DNA from: an uncultured Chthonomonas sp.
Lineage (GTDB): Bacteria; Armatimonadota; Chthonomonadetes; Chthonomonadales; CAJBBX01
NCBI GenBank assembly: GCA_903885605.1
Contig: CAISJD010000034.1
Span: 1 to 33,947 of the forward strand
Direction: 5' to 3'
DNA length: 33,947 nt
Below the pieces are notes generated by a model. That model searched no databases and was not told the origin of the DNA. It saw only the letters and a list, made by a program, of their open reading frames with translations. Each line of letters begins with the position of its first letter. Position 1 is the stretch's first letter. This document shows positions 3,350 to 33,947 of the stretch, piece by piece. The translations under genes and the position numbers were made by a program.

Positions 3350-3922
3350 TCAGCCGAGAAGCCTGACGATAGCTATTTCAGTGCCGTCTTGCACTGTCAG
3401 TGTCCGGAGTTCATCTCCAGTGTACGCGGTTGGGGAAACAGAGGTCGGGCGCTTGGACAGCGACCGGGCCTTCTTGAGCACCACGCATCGTGTGATGAAC
3501 TCAGGCGGCTGTTTGTCGCGGGCCCGCTGGATGATCTCGTCCAGGTAGGCTAAGAAGCACTCCGCCCCGAGTATCTGGCGTGATGCGCCCTTTGAGTTGC
3601 CGGATTTCAGTTCGATGTAGATGCGGTAGACGTGGTTCCGGTAACGGCAATGGATCACTGCATCACAGCCCTGATTCCACACGTGACGGGCCTCTTGCCG
3701 GAACAGGTGGGAGTACCGCCCGTGCCCTGCCAGTCCTCTGTCCGGCAGGACGGCAAAGGAGTCCTTACCCAGATGGGTAACTGCAATACTGCGAAGCGTG
3801 GCGTTGGCGCCGTGCTCCTTCAGCGTGATGGACTGGCGATCATCGGCTGATCGAACCAGGACGTTGGCAGTCAGCATCTCGGCCACCATGGCCGCGTACT
3901 CGACGAGGTCAGTCTGCTGCAT
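3350..3922 (-). CDS. PD-(D/E)XK nuclease-like effector paired with an AAA ATPase
   Basis: This 190-residue soluble protein is not assignable to a named family by eye. A PD-(D/E)XK-like core can be read: E77 in a helix (RQEARHVWN), D87 in GCDAVIHC, then a strand ending in YIELKSG with E104 and K106, followed by Q116 in a helix (SRQILGAECFLAYL), the position of the conserved Gln in RecB-like members. This suggests a small metal-dependent DNase. The gene overlaps the 3' end of the upstream ATPase by 14 bases, so the two are co-translated. The layout resembles two-gene ATPase-plus-nuclease antiphage systems such as Septu, but the nuclease here is not HNH. The alternative is a non-catalytic accessory protein with the same fold. 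Confidence 0.6.
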   Translation of the reverse strand: MQQTDLVEYAAMVAEMLTANVLVRSADDRQSITLKEHGANATLRSIAVTHLGKDSFAVLPDRGLAGHGRYSHLFRQEARHVWNQGCDAVIHCRYRNHVYRIYIELKSGNSKGASRQILGAECFLAYLDEIIQRARDKQPPEFITRCVVLKKARSLSKRPTSVSPTAYTGDELRTLTVQDGTEIAIVRLLG

Positions 3923-5318
3923 CGTCGAGGTGGTCCAGTATCTGGTCCTGTCTTGCGTTCATCTCGTTGATTGTTTCATCAAAGCTGAGGAACTCAAAGC
4001 TGGCATCGGGTAAGGGCTGGACTGCCGACAGCACCAGATGCCGACTTCGGCGCTTGGCTTCGGCGTTCCTCTTTACGGACTGCTCACCGGCGACGTACAC
4101 GCGCGCTCTGCCCGCATCGAGCCTCTCATCGGACTTGTAGCCCAGGCGCTCGGCCACCTCGACCTCGGTGCTGCCGAGGAGCAGCATGGTGTTGAGTTCC
4201 TTGGCTATATAGTCGCTGTGTGTGGTGACCAGCACCTTCAGTCCGGCGTTCACCAAGCGGGCCAGCAGACGGGCCATCAGCACCTGGCTAGCCGGATGGA
4301 GGTTCAGCTCCGGCTCATCGATCATCAGGAGGTCGCCGGTTCTCGCTTGGTGGCGCAGGTAGAGCCCGAGGCCGAGAAGGCTCCGCACAGAGCTGGAACT
4401 CTCGTTCAGCGCAAGCTTGGGGCTTCTGCCCGCCGGCTGGAAGTACACCGATCCCCTTGACACGTGGTAGCGGCCGCCAAGCAACTCCTCAAAACCTGTG
4501 AGGAGTTCCAGCATGGCCGTGATCAGCTCTCCCTGAGAGCCCTGCACGGCATCAACCTGATTCATCCGGTCCACTTCGTCGCGGACCGGCAACGGGTACC
4601 TCGGGCTGAACTCAGGAATCAGGATGGAGAGGAGTTGCTTGGGTTCTAGCCGCTTCGAGGTTTCCACGCTGGAGAGGGCCTCGATCAGCCGCGTCCTCGT
4701 GAAGTTCAGCTCGTTCCGGAACGTAGCCGCACCCGTGCGCTCGGTGCTGATCATGACGACCCTAGGCACGACGCCGCTGAATGCAAGCGACTGCACGGCC
4801 GGCAGCAGCATATCGCGCAGGACAGGCTGTGGAATGGCCTTTGGGTCGCCGTCCACAAGGCTGGCCACCAGACTCATCGAACTATGGGCCTTGGTGACAC
4901 TGACCATGGGCGTCGCGTCGGGACGCTGATAGGTGTGGGCAAACTCCCTGCTGACCAAGCCGCCCGGTGGCGGTGCGGCGATGGTTAACTCGGTGGCGTC
5001 AAATCTGCCTTCCTCCGCGGCCAGCACGCCGGCAAGCGCCTTTCGGTACTCCGTAGCGATTCGCGCAAGGTTGTCCTGCCAGGGCGCCAGAATCCGCTCG
5101 CCCAGGTCAATCTCAACACTTCCGGTGTCGGCCAAGCGTGCCGTATCCGCGTCGTCGATCAGCCACGTGGATAGGGCCGGCCACAGTTTTAGAAGACCAT
5201 AGATTGAATAGGCGACGTATGTCTTTCCGGTGTTATTACGTCCACATATAAGTGTAAGATCGCCAATAGCGATGCATGCATCGGTCAACGCGCCCAGATG
5301 GCGGAACTTCAATTCCAT
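3909..5318 (-). CDS. AAA family ATPase (OLD/SMC-like), sensor of a putative defence cassette
   Basis: The 469-residue protein is an ABC/SMC-class ATPase of the kind found in OLD, Septu and related defence systems. It starts MELKFRHLG. Walker A is GRNNTGKT at residues 26-33. A serine-rich signature loop (NESSSSVRSL, about 305-314) precedes Walker B, LLMIDEPELNLHP (330-342), and the H-loop TTHSD (365-369). The central 200 residues between Walker A and the signature are the usual insertion that forms a coiled arm. The 100-residue tail has no TOPRIM motif, so nuclease activity must come from the adjacent PD-(D/E)XK-like protein. A TGGAG box lies 9 bases before the ATG. The gene lies inside the repeat-bounded insertion, immediately upstream of and overlapping its partner. 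Confidence 0.8.
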   Translation of the reverse strand: MELKFRHLGALTDACIAIGDLTLICGRNNTGKTYVAYSIYGLLKLWPALSTWLIDDADTARLADTGSVEIDLGERILAPWQDNLARIATEYRKALAGVLAAEEGRFDATELTIAAPPPGGLVSREFAHTYQRPDATPMVSVTKAHSSMSLVASLVDGDPKAIPQPVLRDMLLPAVQSLAFSGVVPRVVMISTERTGAATFRNELNFTRTRLIEALSSVETSKRLEPKQLLSILIPEFSPRYPLPVRDEVDRMNQVDAVQGSQGELITAMLELLTGFEELLGGRYHVSRGSVYFQPAGRSPKLALNESSSSVRSLLGLGLYLRHQARTGDLLMIDEPELNLHPASQVLMARLLARLVNAGLKVLVTTHSDYIAKELNTMLLLGSTEVEVAERLGYKSDERLDAGRARVYVAGEQSVKRNAEAKRRSRHLVLSAVQPLPDASFEFLSFDETINEMNARQDQILDHLDDAAD

Positions 5319-5830: not shown

Positions 5831-6833
5831 CTCACACGAACAGCCGCAGAAGAGGCGCGTGACCGCGCGGGATATCGCACAGAAGCTGGGGCTCTCGCAG
5901 TCCACGGTGTCGCGCGTGCTCAGCGGCGCCAAGGACTACCAGTACTCCGAGGAGACACGCAAGCGTATCCGGGCCAGGGCCGAGCAGATGGGCTACAGGC
6001 CCCACGCCGTGGCCCAGTCGCTGCGGCAACAGCGGACGCGGGTCATCGGTTTCTGCAGCCGCCACGGCCACCTGGACGCGCGCAACACCTTCCTGGCGGA
6101 GATCATCGGCAGCCTGCAGCGCTCCTGCTCCGAGCATGGAGAGTTTCTGATGCTCCATAGCTTCGCCCCGGGCACACCGGACGACGTGGCCTATGGCGAG
6201 TTGGTCTCCGGCCGCATTGACGGGCTTATCCTGCACGGCAACGATGCCGACCCGCTGGCGCGCCGCCTGGCTGCCGGGCCTCTGCCGGTCGTGGCTGTGG
6301 TGGACCGGATTACCGGCGTTCCGGCCGTGCTGTGCGATGATCGCGGCGGCATGGCGCTGGCCGTGCGGCATCTGTCCGAGCGAGGGCATCGGCGCATCGG
6401 GTTCGTCCACGCGGGCCGAGGGTTGGCGTCGGTCTGCGCCCGGATCGAGGGATACCTCACGGCCATGGCCGAACTGGGGCTGGAGCCGCACCTTATCGAG
6501 GTCGATTATGAGGAGGCCGGGCCTGCGCTGGCGGCCATTCGATCTGCCGGCACGCCGCCCACGGCCGTCTGTTGCTGGAACGACGTGACTGCCCTGGTGC
6601 TGCTGGAGGCCTGTGCCGCCGCCGGTCTGCGCGTTCCGGCCGACCTCGCGGTGATGGGCTTCGATGGGCTACTGGACACGCGGTTGGCCGGGCAGCACCT
6701 GACCACGGTCTCGGCCCACTGGCCTGAAGTGACCCGGCGGGCGCTCGAAGTACTACGAGCGCGGCTTGGGGGAGGGGATGCACCTGAGGAGACGGTCATC
6801 GACGTCTCAGTGCGCTTGGGGAGGACCACCTAG
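5826..6833 (+). CDS. LacI-family transcriptional regulator
   Basis: A 335-residue repressor of normal family length. Residues 12-34 (VTARDIAQKLGLSQSTVSRV) form the LacI helix-turn-helix followed by the hinge helix. About residues 65-330 form the periplasmic-binding-protein-like sugar sensor (VIGFCSRHGHL, LVSGRIDGLILHG, HRRIGFVHAGRG, DLAVMGFDGL, TTVSAHWPEV). The ATG at 5826 has no ribosome binding site and lies about two bases after the predicted transcription start. The alternative start is GTG at 5859, with AGAAGAGG 3 bases upstream, which gives a protein beginning at the helix-turn-helix. Identical operators at its own start and upstream of the pseudopilin gene suggest it represses itself and that pair. 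The effector is probably a sugar released by the neighbouring hydrolases; its identity is unknown. Confidence 0.9.
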   Translation: MHSHEQPQKRRVTARDIAQKLGLSQSTVSRVLSGAKDYQYSEETRKRIRARAEQMGYRPHAVAQSLRQQRTRVIGFCSRHGHLDARNTFLAEIIGSLQRSCSEHGEFLMLHSFAPGTPDDVAYGELVSGRIDGLILHGNDADPLARRLAAGPLPVVAVVDRITGVPAVLCDDRGGMALAVRHLSERGHRRIGFVHAGRGLASVCARIEGYLTAMAELGLEPHLIEVDYEEAGPALAAIRSAGTPPTAVCCWNDVTALVLLEACAAAGLRVPADLAVMGFDGLLDTRLAGQHLTTVSAHWPEVTRRALEVLRARLGGGDAPEETVIDVSVRLGRTT

Positions 6834-26284: not shown

Positions 26285-27247
26285 ATGCCGACGGACAACC
26301 TGCCGGGCCGGGGCGCCGCCGCCCTGGCCTGGTTTGAGGCGAACAGGGGCTGCTTCGATACCTGGCAGGTGGTGGCGAACCCGGACCATGACGAAGCCGA
26401 GTGGTGGGCCGGGGCGCCCTCGGTGGCTCGGGACGCCCAGGGCGTCTTCTGGCTTGCCTGCCGCATGCGCACGGCCAACGACCGGCTCGGCAGGCGCGGC
26501 TATGAGGTACGCATCTTCCGCAGCGAGGAGGGCGAGGAGTGGACGCACGTCCACTCCATCCGCCGCGAGGAGGCGCCCATCGCCGGGTTTGAGCGGCCCG
26601 CGCTGCTCCTCGACCCGGCCACGGGGCGCTTCAGCCTCTACGCCTGCGGCCCGGTGGACGAGGTCTGGTGCATCCTGCGGTTCGACGACGCCGACCGGCC
26701 CGACCGGTTCGTGCCGAGTAGCTGCCGCACGGTCATCGCCCCGCTGGGCCCCGGCCTGCCCACAGGCTACAAGGACCCCTTCGTGCTGTCGGCCGGCGAC
26801 CGGCGGCGGCTCTTCACCATCGGCATCCACGAGTTTGAGCAGGTCTACGCCTTCGCAAGCGACGACGGCGAGGCGTGGCAGCCCGTCGGCAACCCGGCGG
26901 CGTCGATCCTGCCCCTGGCGGGCTGGCACACCCACGCCGTGCGGCCCGCCTGCGCGCTGCCGGCCTTCGGGGGCCATCTCTTCATCTATGAGGGATCCGA
27001 CGCCGCTTGGCCGGACCCCAGCTACAACATCTCCACGGGCCTGGCCTGGACACCCGACCTGCAGACGCTCACCGACCTGACGCCCGACGCCCCCGCCCTC
27101 CGAAGCCCAACGCCGGGGCGGCTCCACGCCTGGCGCTACTCGCACTGGCTGCGCGTGGGCGGCGAGGTATGGGTCTTCGCCGAGGTCAGCAAGCCCAACT
27201 CCGCGCACGAGACCCGCCTCTTCAAGCTGCCCGCGCCGCCGGGGTAG
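26285..27247 (+). CDS. Beta-propeller protein related to GH32/43/130 clans
   Basis: The ATG at 26285 follows a purine-rich GAGGGGGAGCAGG stretch and gives a 320-residue protein without a signal peptide. The blades read as WWAGAPSVARDAQGVFWLAC, YEVRIFRSEEGEEWTHV, ERPALLLDPATGRFSLYACG, GYKDPFVLSAG, QVYAFASDDGEAWQPVG, GHLFIYEGSDAAWPDP and a closing VGGEVWVFAEVSKPN. The repeated aromatic blade edges and a KDP motif are typical of five-bladed propeller hydrolases. Catalytic acids cannot be placed securely. Its cytoplasmic location beside an exported hydrolase suggests it handles the imported product, but a non-catalytic role is possible. Confidence 0.65.
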   Translation: MPTDNLPGRGAAALAWFEANRGCFDTWQVVANPDHDEAEWWAGAPSVARDAQGVFWLACRMRTANDRLGRRGYEVRIFRSEEGEEWTHVHSIRREEAPIAGFERPALLLDPATGRFSLYACGPVDEVWCILRFDDADRPDRFVPSSCRTVIAPLGPGLPTGYKDPFVLSAGDRRRLFTIGIHEFEQVYAFASDDGEAWQPVGNPAASILPLAGWHTHAVRPACALPAFGGHLFIYEGSDAAWPDPSYNISTGLAWTPDLQTLTDLTPDAPALRSPTPGRLHAWRYSHWLRVGGEVWVFAEVSKPNSAHETRLFKLPAPPG

Positions 27248-27281
27248 CCGGGCGGAGGGTGGCGGGAAGCGGCCGCAAAGG

Positions 27282-27287
27282 TACAAT
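27282..27287 (+). promoter_or_regulatory. -10 element of the ATPase/TOPRIM cassette
   Basis: GGTACAAT ends 6 bases before the ATG at 27294. Transcription would start at or within a base of the start codon, so the message is probably leaderless; no Shine-Dalgarno is present and no clear -35 is seen. Confidence 0.45.
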
Positions 27288-27293
27288 CCCACC

Positions 27294-28442
27294 ATGATCC
27301 GACGCCTGTACATACACAACTACCGGTGCCTCGTGAACCTGGAGGCGCCCCTGGCGGACCGGCAGAGCCTCCTGCTCGTGGGCCGAAACGGCTCGGGCAA
27401 GACGGCCCTGATTGACGCCGTCTCGACCTTGCGCAGCATCGGACGCGGGGTGAACCGGGTCGGCGACCTGGTAAGGGTCAGCGACCTCGTCCGATTCGGC
27501 GCGGGGGAGGATGCAGAGGCGCAGAGGCGCATGCGGCTTGAGATAGAGGCTGCCCTCCCGACTGGTGTTGTTGCCACCTACTCGCTGGCATTGGAGTTGC
27601 CGCCGGGGTTCCGTGAGCTCCGCGTGGCCGACGAGGCACTGACCGTCGATGGCTCCGAGGTGTTCCGACGCCAGTCATCTGATGTCACATTCGAGCGAAG
27701 ACCGGGGCATCAGGCGTCATTCCCCATCGACTGGCATCAGGTCGCCTTGCCGATCATGCAGGCGCAGGGAGCCGACCACCCGCTGGACCAGTTCCGTCAC
27801 TGGATGCGGTCCATCCTTGTACTGCATCCGGTACCCTCGCTCATGGGCAGTGAGTCGACGGCCGGAACGCTTGACCCGGATAGCTCTTGCGCCAACTTCG
27901 CGGCCTGGTTCCGTGAGGTGATCTCCCAGTTTCCGGCCGCCTACGCCCCCTTCGTCGAGTACCTGCGCGAGGTGTTACCAGACCTGGAGTCTGTCCAGAA
28001 CCGCGCCGTGGGCGCTGATGCCCGCAGCCTTGAGTTCGTGTTTGGCGCCGATAGGGGTGAGCGGTTATCGATCCCGCTGGGCGAGCTTTCGGACGGGGAG
28101 AAGTGCCTCGCCGTTGCCGCGCTGGTGGTTGCCCTGAGCAAGGCGGTGAGCCCGCGTGTATGCCTGTGGGACGAGCCGGATAACTTCATCGGCATTGCCG
28201 AGGTCGGCCACCTCGTCATGTCGCTGCGCCGCAACCTCCGCAACGGCGGGCAGTTCATCGCAACCTCGCACAACCCTGAGGCGATCCGCCGCTTCTCGGA
28301 CGAGAACACGCGGCTCATGACGCGCACCGGGCACCTGGAGCCGGCACGCCTGCGACCGGTGTCGGAGCTCGGCCTGAAAGGCGACCTGGCGGACTGCCTC
28401 GCCCGCGGCGGCGAAGTCGAGGCCCGGGGCGAGGCATCGTGA
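27294..28442 (+). CDS. AAA family ATPase (OLD/SMC-like) of a second putative defence pair
   Basis: The 382-residue ATPase starts MIRRLYIHNYRCLVNLE, the common RecF/OLD-type opening. Walker A is GRNGSGKT (30-37); the signature is L265-SDGEK-270; Walker B is VCLWDEPD with D293 and E294; the H-loop is ATSHNPE with H326. The insertion between Walker A and signature is short, and there is no fused nuclease. It overlaps its partner by 4 bases (GTGA). The arrangement resembles systems in which an ATPase is paired with a separate TOPRIM-type protein (AriA/AriB of PARIS, AbiL). It is unrelated in detail to the ATPase at 3909-5318. Chromosomal housekeeping is possible but less likely given the partner. 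Confidence 0.8.
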   Translation: MIRRLYIHNYRCLVNLEAPLADRQSLLLVGRNGSGKTALIDAVSTLRSIGRGVNRVGDLVRVSDLVRFGAGEDAEAQRRMRLEIEAALPTGVVATYSLALELPPGFRELRVADEALTVDGSEVFRRQSSDVTFERRPGHQASFPIDWHQVALPIMQAQGADHPLDQFRHWMRSILVLHPVPSLMGSESTAGTLDPDSSCANFAAWFREVISQFPAAYAPFVEYLREVLPDLESVQNRAVGADARSLEFVFGADRGERLSIPLGELSDGEKCLAVAALVVALSKAVSPRVCLWDEPDNFIGIAEVGHLVMSLRRNLRNGGQFIATSHNPEAIRRFSDENTRLMTRTGHLEPARLRPVSELGLKGDLADCLARGGEVEARGEAS

Positions 28443-28942
28443 ACCGCGAGCGTCCCCATGTGCTGATCCTGCCGGAGGACGCGGCGAACCGCGACATCGC
28501 CAACGGCTTCGCGCTCGACGTCGATCATGAACGGGCGCTGCAGGTTCTGCCCGTGCAACGGGGCTGGACGAACGTTCGTGATGCGCTGCAACAGACCTTT
28601 GTGCCCGAGCTTCGTCGATATCGGTGCGCCCACCTGGTGGCCCTGATCGACTTCGACAGCCGGCCCGACAGGCGTATGTTGTTCACCGACGAACTGGCAT
28701 TGCCCGCCGACATCGCGGAGCGGGTCTTCATTGCCGGCGCACTCACAGAGGTCGAGGACCTGCGGCGTAGCCTCGTGAGCCGCCATCTGATAAGCCCGAA
28801 CACGCTTGAGGGCATCGGAGAGGCCCTCGCCGAGGAGTGCCGGACGGGCAGCTCCCTTGTGTGGGGCGACGAGTTGCTCACCCACAATGCCGTTAAGGTC
28901 GCCCGAATGCGCACGGCCCTCCGGCCGATCCTCTTCAACTAG
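28439..28942 (+). CDS. Small TOPRIM-like protein paired with an AAA ATPase
   Basis: The GTG start at 28439 lies in the overlap with the ATPase stop, so translation is coupled. The 167-residue product shows a strand-acid pattern like a TOPRIM fold: HVLILPEDAANRDIANGF with E13, then a strand LVALIDFDSRPDRR with D71-x-D73, then RVFIAGALTEVEDLRR. The C-terminal LLTHNAVKVARMRTALRPILF is predicted helical. TOPRIM domains in OLD-type systems cut or nick DNA or RNA using one Glu and a DxD pair. Here these residues are present in the right order and spacing. I recall this as a widespread but unnamed partner of AAA ATPases; the nuclease role is inferred. Confidence 0.65.
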   Translation: MNRERPHVLILPEDAANRDIANGFALDVDHERALQVLPVQRGWTNVRDALQQTFVPELRRYRCAHLVALIDFDSRPDRRMLFTDELALPADIAERVFIAGALTEVEDLRRSLVSRHLISPNTLEGIGEALAEECRTGSSLVWGDELLTHNAVKVARMRTALRPILFN

Positions 28943-28954
28943 CCGATTTGTCCC

Positions 28955-28968
28955 CCCGGCGCGCCGGG
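28955..28968. terminator. GC palindrome between convergent genes
   Basis: CCCGGCGCGCCGGG is a perfect 14-base palindrome, able to form a 5-bp hairpin with a 4-base loop. It lies 12 bases past the TOPRIM-like gene and 8 bases past the convergent cstA stop. It is too short and lacks a T-run, so the termination role is uncertain. Confidence 0.3.
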
Positions 28969-28976
28969 CTACGTCC

Positions 28977-30680
28977 TCAACCGGCAGTGCCTTCGCGAGC
29001 CTCCGGCGTAGCGCAGCGCAACGTCGAGGCCACCCGGATCGCCTCGATCACCAGCCAGACAGCCAGCGCCAGCAGGAGGATGCCCACCACGCCGGAAACG
29101 ATGACGTCCGGCTTGACCGCGCCCAGATTTCCGAGCCCCTGCGCGAACGGCAGGATCAGCAGCGCCAGCGACCAGAAGGTGACCACCAGCATGAAGAGCA
29201 TGGGGATCAGCGCCATCAGCGGGTTCCGGCCCGTCCGCGCCAGCCACATGGTGATCGCCAGGAGCGTAAGGCAGGCGAGGAGCTGGTTCGTGGTGCCGAA
29301 GACGGGCCAGGCCACGAGGTAGCCCTTCTCCTTGGTCAGCATGAGGAAGATGAGCGGCAGCACCAGCGTCGCCGCCGTGGCCGCCACACTGGCCGCCTTG
29401 GACCGGAGGCCCAGCAGCTCCTCCAGCACGTAGCGCCCCAGGCGGGTGCAGACGTCCAGCGTGTCATACACGAAGGTGGAGAAGGCCACCAGCGCGAACG
29501 AGAGTGCCAGGGTGTAGTCCACCCCAACCAGCCCCAGGTAGCGCGCCAGTCCGTTGGCATAGATGACGTTGGGATCCTTGCCCAGGGCCGGGTCGCCATG
29601 CTTGAGCATCATCACGGTGGCCAGCGCCAGAACCGCCACGCCGCCCTCCAGCACCATGGCTCCGTAGCCCACGGGCCGTGCGTCGCACTCGCGGTCCAGC
29701 TGCCTCGAAGTCGTGCCGGCGCTGACGATGCCGTGGAAGCCCGAGCAGGCCCCACAGGCCACTGTGATGAAGAGCGCCGGGATGACCAGCTTGCCCGTGT
29801 CCAGCCCCTTGAGCCCCTCCAGGTTAAACGCGGGGTAGTGCACCGCGAAGCCGCCGAAGAGCGCGCCCAGGAGCGCCACGGCCATGGTGAGGTAGAGGAA
29901 CCAGCCGCCGAGGTAGCCGCGAGGCTGCAGCAGGATCCACATCGGCATGAGCGCTGCCACGAAGCAGTAGGCCAGCAGGCCCACCTCCCACTGCTTCACG
30001 GTGATCGCCTGCATGCGCTGCGTCAGCTCCGCCGGCAGGGTCGTGCCCGCCCAGATCGCCACGAAGACGAGCGGAAGGCAGACCGCCGTGGCGAGCCAGA
30101 GCTTCACGCGGAAGCGGAACAGCGCCACACCCATGGCCACGCCGATCAGCAGGTAGAGGCCCGAGCTCACCGCCACGCCCGGACCCAGGGCGGTCTCGTT
30201 GGCGACCGTCTTGAAGGTCTGCGCCGTCACGTCCGTGAAGGCGATGATCACGTAGGTCAGCGTCAGCCAGACAAAGAGCAGGAAGAGCGTGCGCGAAGTG
30301 GGAGACATGTAGCGGCGCACGATCTCACCGATGGAGCTGGCGCGATGCCGGACCGAGGCCAGTAGAGCCGCGAAGTCGTGGACGCCGCCCACGAAGATGC
30401 AGCCCAAGACGATCCAGAGCAGCGCCGGAACCCAGCCGAACCAGATGCCCGCCAGGATCGGCCCGACGATGGGCCCCGCCGCCGCGATGGCCGAGAAGTG
30501 CTGCGCCATCAGCATGGAGGGCCCCGCGGGCACGAAGTCGACGCCGTCGCCCATGGTATGGGCGGGCGTGTTGCGCTCCTGCGAGAGGCCCATGCGGCCG
30601 CAGACCCACCGTCCGTAGGTCACGTAGCCCACGCCGAGCGCCAACAGCGAGAGAACGACCACCACGCTGACCAAGCTCAA
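28977..30680 (-). CDS. cstA: Carbon starvation protein CstA-family transporter
   Basis: A 567-residue membrane protein with about 16 hydrophobic helices. The family signature region is clear: RNTPAHTMGDGVDFVPAG, QHFSAIAAAGPIVGPILAG, FGWVPALLWIVLGCIFVGGV HDF, then GACSGFHGIVSAGTTSRQL and PVFGTTNQLLA. CstA proteins import pyruvate or peptides, often under carbon limitation. The length is below the about 700 residues of the E. coli protein and matches the shorter CstA form. The start is uncertain: TTG at 30680 follows a run of G and the protein then reads SLVSVVVVLSLLALGVGY. It is monocistronic and divergent from the HEPN gene; uptake of small carbon compounds fits the saprotrophic context. Confidence 0.9.
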   Translation of the reverse strand: MSLVSVVVVLSLLALGVGYVTYGRWVCGRMGLSQERNTPAHTMGDGVDFVPAGPSMLMAQHFSAIAAAGPIVGPILAGIWFGWVPALLWIVLGCIFVGGVHDFAALLASVRHRASSIGEIVRRYMSPTSRTLFLLFVWLTLTYVIIAFTDVTAQTFKTVANETALGPGVAVSSGLYLLIGVAMGVALFRFRVKLWLATAVCLPLVFVAIWAGTTLPAELTQRMQAITVKQWEVGLLAYCFVAALMPMWILLQPRGYLGGWFLYLTMAVALLGALFGGFAVHYPAFNLEGLKGLDTGKLVIPALFITVACGACSGFHGIVSAGTTSRQLDRECDARPVGYGAMVLEGGVAVLALATVMMLKHGDPALGKDPNVIYANGLARYLGLVGVDYTLALSFALVAFSTFVYDTLDVCTRLGRYVLEELLGLRSKAASVAATAATLVLPLIFLMLTKEKGYLVAWPVFGTTNQLLACLTLLAITMWLARTGRNPLMALIPMLFMLVVTFWSLALLILPFAQGLGNLGAVKPDVIVSGVVGILLLALAVWLVIEAIRVASTLRCATPEAREGTAG

Positions 30681-30785
30681 GCCCCCCTGCCCCCAGGATT
30701 CCCGCCGCCCGATGCCCAGAGCCGAGTACGTACTGTACCCAATGCGACCCCGTCGAGGGATAGGCGGCGCCGGCTGAGCAAAAGG

Positions 30786-30791
30786 TATAGT
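30786..30791 (+). promoter_or_regulatory. -10 element of the HEPN pair
   Basis: GGTATAGT ends 5 bases before the ATG at 30797, with no Shine-Dalgarno and no obvious -35. This again implies a leaderless message, as for the ATPase/TOPRIM pair and the LacI gene. Confidence 0.45.
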
Positions 30792-30796
30792 GACGT

Positions 30797-31213
30797 ATGG
30801 ACAATGTTGATCGCCAATCGGTGAGTGATGCTTGGAGCGAAGCCGCCCAGGATGCCCTCAATGCTGCCCGGGAACTCAAGGAACGCGCGCACTATCGAAG
30901 CAGCGTGAGCCGGGCCTACTATGCCGCGTATGCGTTCCTGGCGGCGGCCATGGTCGCCAAGCCCGGGGTCTCATTCGCTGACGGGCGTGACGGGCCACAA
31001 CATGGATCGCTCCCCGATCTTGTCAAGAGCCATTTGGCCGGCGATCTGGGCAGGCGGATCCTTTGGAACGTGCGCACGAGCATTACAGCGCTCTATGAGG
31101 CCAGGCTCGTAGCAGACTACAGGCCCAGGGTGTTCGTGAACAGGGATGTAGCCACCGATGCGCTCAGGCGCGCCGGCGCGATCGCCAACGCGGTGAAGAG
31201 GGACTCGCCATGA
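30797..31213 (+). CDS. HEPN-domain protein (UPF0332/COG1895-like)
   Basis: The 138-residue helical protein has the HEPN core HYRSSVSRAYYAAYAFLAA (residues 32-50), a central HGSLPDLVKSHL segment (69-80) and the closing LYEARLVADYRP motif (99-110), which is diagnostic for the UPF0332 branch. These proteins usually pair with a minimal nucleotidyltransferase in toxin-antitoxin modules. Here the partner, overlapping by 4 bases (ATGA), is a different 175-residue protein. The canonical RNase motif R-x4-6-H is only loosely matched by R64-x4-H69, in a probable loop, so RNase activity is uncertain. The start ATG directly follows a -10-like element. It is a possible toxin or a substrate-binding helper. 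Confidence 0.75.
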   Translation: MDNVDRQSVSDAWSEAAQDALNAARELKERAHYRSSVSRAYYAAYAFLAAAMVAKPGVSFADGRDGPQHGSLPDLVKSHLAGDLGRRILWNVRTSITALYEARLVADYRPRVFVNRDVATDALRRAGAIANAVKRDSP

Positions 31214-31737
31214 CATCCGCTACCCATACAGACCTGACGACCGAGCAGATGGAGAGGCTGACCGCTGCCATCAACTCGACGCTGACCGGCGACCTTGCCG
31301 CTGAGGTCGTGCCTGATGCGGTGGTGCGGCGCAATGGCGACCTGCTGGTGCCCGTGAGGCCCCTCGCATACCCCGAGCGGATGTTCCCGTTCCTGGAGGG
31401 CCTCGCCGTAGCCGAAATCAGCCTGCGCGACGCCGGAATTGCCGTCCAGCTCCAACCGGACTTCCGGCAGCGCGAGTTGGTGATCGCCTGGAAGGAGGCC
31501 AACGGCGTCTGCAGCTACTGGCCTGCTTACCTCTCCGAGGACCGTGCCGAACTGCGCGACCTGGCGGAGACGATGCCTGATGCGTCGGCGGACCTCGAAT
31601 CGGCAAGGTACAAGACATACGCCTACGATGACGCCGAGGACCTCCTCGATGCGCTGAAGCGCGCCAGGGAGCGTTACCCGGAGGTCGACTTCAGCCGCAT
31701 CGGTGTGCCGGAGGCCACGACACCGGCCGCCGCGTAG
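31210..31737 (+). CDS. Unrecognised partner of the HEPN protein
   Basis: I do not recognise this 175-residue protein. It is soluble and acidic, with no signal peptide or membrane segment. The middle (PERMFPFLEGLAVAEISLRD, IAVQLQPDF, LVIAWKEANGVCSYWPAYL) looks alpha/beta, and the C-terminal third (AYDDAEDLLDALKRARERYP) is helical, followed by an Ala/Thr/Pro tail. It lacks the GS-x-DxD motif of nucleotidyltransferase antitoxins. The 4-base overlap with the HEPN gene indicates co-translation in a fixed ratio, as in toxin-antitoxin pairs. An antitoxin or regulatory subunit role is an inference from arrangement only. Confidence 0.65.
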   Translation: MTSATHTDLTTEQMERLTAAINSTLTGDLAAEVVPDAVVRRNGDLLVPVRPLAYPERMFPFLEGLAVAEISLRDAGIAVQLQPDFRQRELVIAWKEANGVCSYWPAYLSEDRAELRDLAETMPDASADLESARYKTYAYDDAEDLLDALKRARERYPEVDFSRIGVPEATTPAAA

Positions 31738-31754
31738 CCCGCGACAGGGCCGCC

Positions 31755-31774
31755 ACCCAGGTAGCAGCCTGGGT
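31755..31774 (+). terminator. Hairpin after the HEPN pair
   Basis: ACCCAGG at 31755-31761 pairs with CCTGGGT at 31768-31774 across a 6-base loop, 18 bases after the stop codon. It is followed by CTGGTG rather than a T-run. Confidence 0.4.
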
Positions 31775-31871
31775 CTGGTGACGCTGACAACCGCTACTCG
31801 CCCGCGCCACAGCAGGAATGCCCGCCCTCTGCGCCGAAGGTTGCCCCATCAGCCCCGCCACGGAGGCAACC

Positions 31872-33947
31872 ATGCGTTACATCCTGCTCGTACTGGCCGC
31901 ACTTGTCGCTCTTGCCGCGCCCTCGTTGGCGCAGTCGCCGCAGTCGCCCCTGTCTCCCTTCACGCCCGATCCGCACACGCTGCTGCTCTACCACTTCGAC
32001 GAGGGCGCCGGCAAGGTCGCGGCCGATGCGTCGGGCAATGGCGCCGACGGCACGCTGCAGGGCGCCGCCTGGGCCCGCGGCAAGTTCGGCGGCGGCGTGC
32101 AGCTCGACGGCGTGGGCGCCAGCGTCTTCCGCAAGGCGACCCCGGCGCTCATGGGCCTCAAGCGCTTCACGGTGGAGTGCTGGTACCGGCAGGACAACCC
32201 CTCGGGCCGGCAGTTCCTGGTGGGCAAGGATGTCACCTTCCACTGGGACCTGAGCGAGGGCAACGCCTCCACGCTGTCGCTCTACAACCTGGGCGGGCAG
32301 GTGCTCAACTCCGAGGGCAAGCCGCACATGCAGGCGGGCGCCTTCCTGGGAGCCCACAGTGGCATCCGATGGAACCACCTGGCAGCCTGCTACGACGGCT
32401 CGCAGGTGAGCCTCTTCATGAACGGACGCCTCGCCTGGCGCGGCGTCGGCCCGAAGGACTTCACGCTCGGCTCCGACAGCCGCGGCCTCTGGATCGGCTG
32501 CTACGTGGGCATGGACTACTGGTTCAGCGGCATCATCGACGAGGTGCGCATCTCGGATGTGGTCCGCTACGACCCCGAGGGGCGGCTGGCCGTGGGCGGC
32601 GTGGCCGTGGAGATGCCCGGCCCCAAGCCCGTGGTGAAGGAGATTCGCAGGCCCGCCGCCACGGGCCGGACCACGCTGGAGGTGACGCTGCAGAAGCTGC
32701 GGGGCAAGGATGCCGCGGGCTGGGTCTACCTGAAGCCGCCCGGCAAGCCCGCCGCCATCGTGGGGCGGTACGAGATGAAGGGCCTGGCCGCCGGCAAGAC
32801 GGCCAACGTGCGGTGCGATGTCTCCGATGAGGCCGCCGGACCCGGAACCTACATCCTGGCGCTGGAGCCCACCGACGCCGGCGCCGTCATCGCGGCCACG
32901 GGCGCCCACCTGATGCGCGGCGGCAAGGTCGCGGGCTCCTGGGCGGGGCGCGTCGAGTCGCGCCTCACCTTCAGCCCGGTGATGGCGCTTGCGGTCACCA
33001 TCCCCGGCGCGGCGGCCGCGCAGCCGGGCGTCATCGACCTGACGCCGCAGGGCGTGGACCGCCTGGGCGGCACGCTGGCCGCTACCGAGGGCGAAGCGCC
33101 GGGCGTCCAGTTCCTCTCCGGCGACGGGTATGCCGAGTGGTGGCTTCACCTGCCCGGGTCCCAGGCCTACCGCGTGAGCCTGCGCTACGCCTGCGCCGGG
33201 CGGCGGCCCTGCGACATCGTCATCGACGGCCGCGACCTGACCGAGTACACCATGTGCGCCATGAACCCCACCGGCGGCTCCGGCGAGCGCGACGCCTTCT
33301 GGGAGCGGCAGGGCTGGGTCCGCCTGGAGCCCGGCGTCCACTGGCTCCGGCTGCAGGACATGCCGCCCAACGTCTTCGGCATCCGGCTGGAGCCCATCGC
33401 CGCCATGCCCGCGCGCAGGACGCCTTTCGCGTCCTACCCCGTCCCGGCGGCGGGACGCATCATGGGCGGCGGCTGGCAGGGCGCGGCTCTCTTCGATCGG
33501 GCCACGGCGCAACCGACGGCTCGGCCCGACGGCGCGGTGGCGTTTCGCGCGCAACTGCCCGCGGGCGGCGCGGCGCGCGTCGGCCGCCCCGTCAAGTGGA
33601 ACCTGGAGCCCTTCGGAGCCCTCCGCTTCACGTTCACCGGCGAGGGCTCGCGCCACGTCGCCTCCCTCCGGCTGGTGGACGCCAAGGGCGACGAGAAGCT
33701 GCTCTGGCGCGGCCGCGACCTGAAGAAGGGACCGGTGGAGGTGACCGCCCCGCTCCTCTTCGAGGGCATGGACGTCTTCGACGGACGCCACGTGGCGCAG
33801 GTCTGCCTCGACCTGCACGAGGGCAACGTGGGCTCGGCTCCGACCATGGCGGGCCTGCTTGCGGGGCTGACGCTGGTGCGGCGCGACGCCCTGGCCCGGC
33901 CGACGCCGGCGCCTCCGGCTCGGGCCGCGGCCGCTCGACCGGCCGCG
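31872..33947 (+). CDS. Exported LamG-domain protein, 3' end outside the window
   Basis: The ATG at 31872 follows GGAGG by 5 bases. The frame stays open for 692 codons to the window edge, so the gene is incomplete. Residues 1-21 are a signal peptide (MRYILLVLAALVALAAPSLA). A LamG/concanavalin-like jellyroll spans about 35-233 (LLLYHFDEGAGKVAADASGN, FTVECWYRQ, WNHLAACYDGSQVSLFMNG, FSGIIDEVRIS). A second beta-sandwich follows, and at about 394-510 there is a CBM-like domain (GYAEWWLHLP, YRVSLRYACAG, GVHWLRLQDM). The visible end (about 675-692) is a Pro/Ala/Arg linker, which suggests another domain beyond. It is probably a surface glycan-binding protein or hydrolase; no catalytic domain is visible yet. 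Confidence 0.8.
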   Translation, partial: MRYILLVLAALVALAAPSLAQSPQSPLSPFTPDPHTLLLYHFDEGAGKVAADASGNGADGTLQGAAWARGKFGGGVQLDGVGASVFRKATPALMGLKRFTVECWYRQDNPSGRQFLVGKDVTFHWDLSEGNASTLSLYNLGGQVLNSEGKPHMQAGAFLGAHSGIRWNHLAACYDGSQVSLFMNGRLAWRGVGPKDFTLGSDSRGLWIGCYVGMDYWFSGIIDEVRISDVVRYDPEGRLAVGGVAVEMPGPKPVVKEIRRPAATGRTTLEVTLQKLRGKDAAGWVYLKPPGKPAAIVGRYEMKGLAAGKTANVRCDVSDEAAGPGTYILALEPTDAGAVIAATGAHLMRGGKVAGSWAGRVESRLTFSPVMALAVTIPGAAAAQPGVIDLTPQGVDRLGGTLAATEGEAPGVQFLSGDGYAEWWLHLPGSQAYRVSLRYACAGRRPCDIVIDGRDLTEYTMCAMNPTGGSGERDAFWERQGWVRLEPGVHWLRLQDMPPNVFGIRLEPIAAMPARRTPFASYPVPAAGRIMGGGWQGAALFDRATAQPTARPDGAVAFRAQLPAGGAARVGRPVKWNLEPFGALRFTFTGEGSRHVASLRLVDAKGDEKLLWRGRDLKKGPVEVTAPLLFEGMDVFDGRHVAQVCLDLHEGNVGSAPTMAGLLAGLTLVRRDALARPTPAPPARAAAARPAA

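Follow-up and report, generated by a model that had tools for sequence, protein, structure and literature searches.

The DNA analysed here, a stretch of 33,947 nucleotides from an uncultured Chthonomonas species (referred to as the window), contains two overlapping genes that code for an ABC/RecF-type ATPase and a 167-residue TOPRIM-like partner protein. The coordinates of these genes, and of other features discussed below, are given in Table 1. The ATPase contains a Walker A motif (GRNGSGKT, residues 30–37), a signature motif (LSDGEK, residues 265–270), a Walker B motif (LWDEPD, residues 291–296, including D293-E294) and an H-loop (TSH, residues 324–326), which is the full complement expected for the ABC/RecF-type member of split OLD-like pairs. 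The positions of the first three motifs had been given in an initial annotation of this DNA, and all of them are exact in the 382 aa open reading frame. The GTGA overlap linking this gene to that for the 167-residue protein was likewise confirmed from the sequence, and E13 and D71-x-D73 of the latter protein were found exactly where they had been reported. The overlap probably serves to couple the translation of the two genes.

Table 1. Positions of the gene pair, its associated elements and related loci
Feature	Position	Strand	Remarks
ABC/RecF-type ATPase, 382 aa	27294..28442	+	Start ATG; open reading frame and motif reading
TOPRIM-like partner, 167 aa	28439..28942	+	Start GTG; family alignment and profile chain
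GTGA stop/start overlap of ATPase and partner	28439..28442	+	Sequence
TACAAT, -10-like hexamer	27282..27287	+	Starts exactly 12 nt upstream of the start codon of the ATPase
Segment with only the pair	27241..29016	.	Replaced by 27 bp in same-genus genome G028 (blastn against G028:C152)
Other ATPase cassette	3350-5318	-	469 aa AAA_15/AAA_21 ATPase and 190 aa partner, the latter with no Pfam match
HEPN-domain gene	30797-31213		PF05168, 4e-10; beyond cstA; overlaps 175 aa gene (31210-31737)
Further ATPase and small-partner loci	L003 (C72), L004 (C68), L005 (C154), L046 (C178)		Genome of the window (G000); L-type or DUF4276-like partners

In searches with Pfam models the ATPase matched AAA_21 (1.2e-17) and SMC_N (7.8e-13), and among the PADLOC models its best match was to mad3 (5.6e-23), followed by HEC-01A (5e-22) and AriA (2e-19). 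Its matches in the PDB were weak and included the OLD-family nuclease 6p74. Across 11 ATPases of this kind, no variation is seen at residues G30, N32, G33, G35, K36, L265-S266, G268-K270, W292-D296, and T324-H326. The first 75 codons of the gene (27294-27518, the P-loop region) show a nucleotide identity of 0.87 to the copy in genome G029, compared to 0.97 for the remainder, as if this part had recombined or been under different selection.

The partner protein itself showed no significant match to Pfam, NCBIfam, or PADLOC models. Members of its family, which are 158–169 aa long and are mostly 29–60% identical to the protein from the window, share the invariant residues P12, E13, D14, G42, D71, D73, R95, G100, E106, G127, C134, W142, L147, and H149, with E13, D14, D71, and D73 remaining unchanged down to about 29% identity. 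The dN/dS value of the partner between two genomes of the same genus is about 0.5–0.6, which indicates only mild constraint and counts against the interpretation that we favour below.

Distribution, inheritance, and mobility of the pair

Relatives of the partner were detected by protein searches in 12 of the 291 Armatimonadota genomes and were absent from the other 279, and a profile search of the 291 genomes recovered the identical 12. Beyond the Armatimonadota, where plasmid, phage, and viral collections were covered together with a single scan of genome contigs, a thirteenth copy was identified in the cyanobacterium Kovacikia minuta, where it is carried by a plasmid. The viral and phage collections contained no relatives of the partner, and relatives of the L-type partners (see below) were not found in viral contigs. 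One of the loci (L001) is apparently the G029 copy, with which it shares the same proteins. Each intact partner gene is located directly behind a relative of the window's ATPase. The two genes overlap by 4 nt in the majority of loci and by 10 nt in one, and in three loci they are separated by gaps of 6–12 nt. The pairing is not due to chance: relatives of the partner occur in 11 other genomes or plasmids, each intact one immediately behind an ATPase of this type, and the partner, whose assignment to TOPRIM proteins is based upon the profile chain described below, is kept as an adjacent, separate gene in all intact members.

In a phylogenetic tree based upon 43 ATPase sequences, the ATPases with partners of the window's type (A-type) formed a single clade (99/100), which was joined to the ATPases with L-type partners (100/100) and was distinct from those associated with DUF4276 proteins (100/100). 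The groupings of the ATPases and of the partner families are therefore in agreement, as would be the case for co-inherited subunits. The ATPase from the Kovacikia plasmid nests within those from the armatimonadotes, and this branching suggests that the pair has been transferred between phyla.

In the same-genus genome G028, a GH43-like gene and cstA, between which the pair is situated in the window, are just 22 bp apart, and the two genomes are 88.6–92.2% identical on either side of the replaced segment. G028 also contains a pair on another contig, which is only 72% (ATPase) and 62% (partner) identical to that of the window, as compared with 95% for CstA; this low identity and the different location point to separate acquisition of the two pairs. 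With three genomes compared, the empty site may represent either a gain or a loss. Except in the window and G029, the loci have no neighbour in common that would suggest a larger cluster, and only the two genes travel together. The neighbours of the window's pair are mostly non-defence genes, and neither terminal repeats nor a recognisable transposase is evident on its flanks. A conserved housekeeping neighbourhood, which the initial annotation had named as counting against its proposal, was not observed, as the neighbours vary and the site in G028 is empty.

The -10-like hexamer upstream of the ATPase also recurs at other loci. A TANNNT hexamer is present at exactly -12 in 7 of the 11 family members, the DNA of which differs further upstream, and it reads TACAAT in the window, L001, L008, L010, and L011. 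As a background, TANNAT was found anywhere in the region from -18 to -7 at 5 of the 439 ATGs in the window, and TANNNT at -12 was not seen for the L-type or DUF4276-type ATPases that were examined. The shared hexamer suggests that the pair probably brings its own promoter, giving rise to a leaderless mRNA. Further along in the window, the region 30676-31892, which contains the HEPN-domain and 175 aa genes, is replaced by about 185 bp in both G028 and G029 and is therefore a second small insertion, private to the window's genome, near the first; a TATAGT sequence is likewise present 11 nt upstream of its start.

Some of the copies have decayed, with 3 of the 12 chromosomal copies being fragmentary or interrupted. 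Only fragments are left in G034 and G040, and the partner from G145 (L013/L120) has an in-frame TGA at the position of W43 in its relatives; the latter may indicate a pseudogene, an assembly error, or recoding. The G145 pair has hsdM on one side and hsdR on the other, both belonging to a type I restriction system. Near the copy on the Kovacikia plasmid are a gene for a DUF5615 protein and a transposase-like gene, and on a conjugative Dolichospermum plasmid an ATPase related to those of the A-type adjoins vapC with no readable partner. At 6107-6538 of this last locus (L144), a short open reading frame after the ATPase has a start that somewhat resembles that of the partner (MSIN...) and stops after 12 residues. 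The dispensability of the pair, its transfer and the company of genes in which it is found fit defence or selfish modules better than housekeeping functions.

The 5.6 Mb genome from which the window derives harbours at least five split ATPase/TOPRIM-like pairs (Table 1), with a DUF4276-like partner at L005; a weak match to DUF4276 was also observed on its contig C37. The split-pair design is thus common and not exceptional to the pair studied here. As at least five such pairs occur in a single armatimonadote genome, systems of this kind are probably undercounted in current defence catalogues; those partners in the order that are DUF4276 proteins already have an entry in PADLOC, as HEC-01B. The other ATPase cassette of the window, located 22 kb away, had been considered unrelated to the pair, and in agreement with this the two showed no sequence similarity beyond the P-loop.

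Relationship of the partner to TOPRIM proteins

The evidence that the partner is related to TOPRIM proteins comes mainly from profiles compared in a chain. A second partner family, which we refer to as L-type, comprises the relatives of the L004 partner and is characterised by the motif VVLCED...IDAD...RNIETW. Using hhalign, the A-type profile matched the L-type profile at 96.5% (P 8e-10), and the L-type profile matched DUF4276 at 94.9% (86.6% with another alignment). DUF4276 in turn matched DUF4435, the AriB family, at 89.8% and an OLD-like TOPRIM profile at 67%. The direct comparison of the A-type profile with DUF4276 was weak (8%) and the link therefore runs through the L-type partners; a merged profile of the A- and L-types matched DUF4276 at 91.4% (P 9e-7). 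Control comparisons with reversed profiles, and with a response-regulator receiver profile from the same genome, gave values of 6% or less. In the residue alignments, E13/D14 corresponds to the E of "VEG" in DUF4276, D71 to the D following strand 3 of DUF4276, and E106 to the E of "HEFEAW" in DUF4276 and of "IETW" in the L-type partners.

The motifs of TOPRIM domains occur in the order E, G, D-x-D (Aravind et al. 1998, as cited in PMC12796447). The invariant residues of the partner family follow the same arrangement, with E13 after strand 1, G42 after strand 2, and D71 and D73 forming the D-x-D after strand 3. An AlphaFold2 model of the partner from two sequences only had a pLDDT of 39.7, with low-confidence strands at residues 7–10, 35–38, and 65–70. 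As the ATPase, whose P-loop fold is undoubted, scored 37.2 when modelled from two sequences, the low value reflects the depth of the alignment and is not counter-evidence on the fold. The AlphaFold2 results being uninformative, the fold of the partner is assigned from the profile chains and the order of the motifs, and it is predicted to be TOPRIM by way of two intermediate families.

When the partner sequence, its own profile, and both bridge profiles were used as queries against PDB sequences, nothing convincing emerged. The DUF4276 model matched none of the 10 partner members tested, the HEC-01B model matched a single member weakly (0.007), and for DUF4435 the partner members showed no match to the model, a profile comparison of 2.9% and no match to AriB of PADLOC. 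Two other candidate relatives were rejected: DUF3226 had no significant link to the A-type family, and a response-regulator receiver, considered because "VLILPED..." resembles "VLIVDDD...", gave a profile comparison of only 0.3%. No fold other than TOPRIM, which the initial annotation had held would speak against it, was indicated. Its proposal of a split OLD-like pair stands in so far as the profile chain, the acidic-motif order and the matches of the ATPase to mad3, HEC-01A, and AriA are concerned, although the support for the TOPRIM fold itself is indirect. Its description of the partner as a minimal TOPRIM holds only in degree, since similar stand-alone partners of about 175–250 aa are common in the order.

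Possible function of the pair

We consider it likely that these genes constitute a self-contained, horizontally moving pair of the split-OLD kind, in which an ATPase sensor and holder is combined with a minimal nuclease effector of the TOPRIM type. By analogy with known systems, the upstream ATPase would act as the sensor and holder, and the downstream partner would be a two-metal nuclease with E13, D71, D73, and probably E106 as its ligands. As in PARIS, a multimer of the ATPase may keep the nuclease inactive until a trigger from a phage or plasmid causes its release or activation; cleavage of DNA or tRNA by the nuclease would then halt the infected cell. The role of the pair is probably anti-phage or anti-plasmid; the signs that bear on defence, viz. 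mobility, patchiness, decay, and the copy between hsdM and hsdR, are all indirect.

The same mobility, along with the overlap of the stop and start codons, is also a feature of toxin–antitoxin modules, and the pair could be one in which a TOPRIM-like toxin is neutralised by the ATPase and which serves mainly to perpetuate itself or its plasmid and not to respond to phages. The location of the cyanobacterial plasmid copies beside genes of the toxin–antitoxin type, the one orphan ATPase and the fragments found elsewhere are in accordance with this. However, in its gene order and in the large size of its ATPase the pair corresponds better to AriA/AriB, mad3/mad4, and HEC-01 than to classical toxin–antitoxin pairs, and the full set of catalytic motifs in the ATPase exceeds the needs of a neutraliser. 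We therefore regard this explanation as unlikely, although in mechanism it overlaps with that of a sensor and effector.

It appears somewhat more improbable still that the partner, with a fold that is TOPRIM-like or otherwise Rossmann-like, is a subunit for regulation or binding and not a nuclease. The lack of a match to Pfam or to any solved structure and the uninformative AlphaFold2 models are compatible with such a role, and the Toprim domain of YbjD from E. coli is reported to be dispensable for the phenotype (PMC13261556). Nevertheless, the invariant residues E13, D14, D71, D73, and E106 occupy the acidic sites of related TOPRIM families, and the profile of the receiver domain does not match.

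RecR, too, has a TOPRIM domain, and the ATPase N-terminus matches RecF/SMC models, as would suit a RecF/RecR-like DNA maintenance or repair pair without a role in defence. This last explanation, for which a new class of archaeal OLD proteins with a role in the cell cycle (PMC12796447) may also be cited, is very improbable, as the pair is missing from 279 of the 291 genomes of the phylum, is broken in three genomes, occupies a variable site within one genus, and has no conserved repair genes as neighbours.

Returning to the sensor and effector pair, we tentatively suggest that the partners, at 160–170 aa, represent a distinct, unnamed family of effectors. They would be the smallest TOPRIM nucleases to stand alone in any split-OLD system and would have an invariant C-terminal set of their own (C134, W142, and H149), a promoter that is fixed and leaderless, and possibly a mode of activation or a substrate unlike that of AriB or GajA. 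PARIS provides the precedent of a stand-alone TOPRIM protein which an ABC ATPase holds and which, once triggered, can act as a tRNA nuclease. With a partner family that lies outside Pfam, NCBIfam, and PADLOC and has about the size of a bare catalytic core, and with a sister genome in which the site is naturally empty, the pair offers a compact test case for the ATPase's own contribution and for the nucleic acid that minimal TOPRIMs cut.

Comparison with known systems

The OLD proteins of classes 1–3 (P2 Old, GajA, and the retron-associated proteins) also combine an ABC ATPase with a TOPRIM domain. However, in these proteins, including those of Gabija, the two are fused in one chain, whereas in every member of the present family they are encoded by separate open reading frames and the partner is roughly as large as the catalytic domain by itself. 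A split of the ATPase and TOPRIM parts is by definition the characteristic of class 4 (PMC12796447, PMC10568477), to which PARIS belongs. In PARIS, a hexamer of AriA holds AriB until a phage protein triggers its release, and AriB, a two-metal TOPRIM protein, then cuts tRNA (PMC12409363). The pair resembles PARIS in that the genes for the ABC ATPase and the TOPRIM protein are separate and side by side, in the match of its ATPase to AriA and in the similarity of the bridging DUF4276 family to DUF4435, but it differs in the short length of the partner, which does not match DUF4435.

With HEC-01, a PADLOC candidate system consisting of the ATPase HEC-01A and the DUF4276 protein HEC-01B, the pair shares the gene order and the overlap, the match of the ATPase to HEC-01A and the link of the A-type partners to DUF4276 through the L-type, besides the weak match of one member to HEC-01B. 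The DUF4276 relatives in the order likewise follow an ATPase and match HEC-01B and, in one case, mad4 (8e-5). In contrast to these proteins, the A-type partners are shorter and are not recognised as HEC-01B, and their ATPases form a separate clade. For MADS, the likeness lies in mad3 being the top PADLOC match of the ATPase and in the mad4 match of the DUF4276 relative; however, the score with the NCBIfam model MADS3 was 57 against a cut-off of 420, and the mad1–mad8 set with its methyltransferase is not present, the loci having no conserved neighbours. As the pair does not conform to PARIS, HEC-01, or MADS, it is best interpreted from these sequence comparisons as a putative new subfamily of the PARIS, HEC-01, and MADS3-4 kind, and most likely counts among the little-known relatives of PARIS and similar anti-virus defence pairs.
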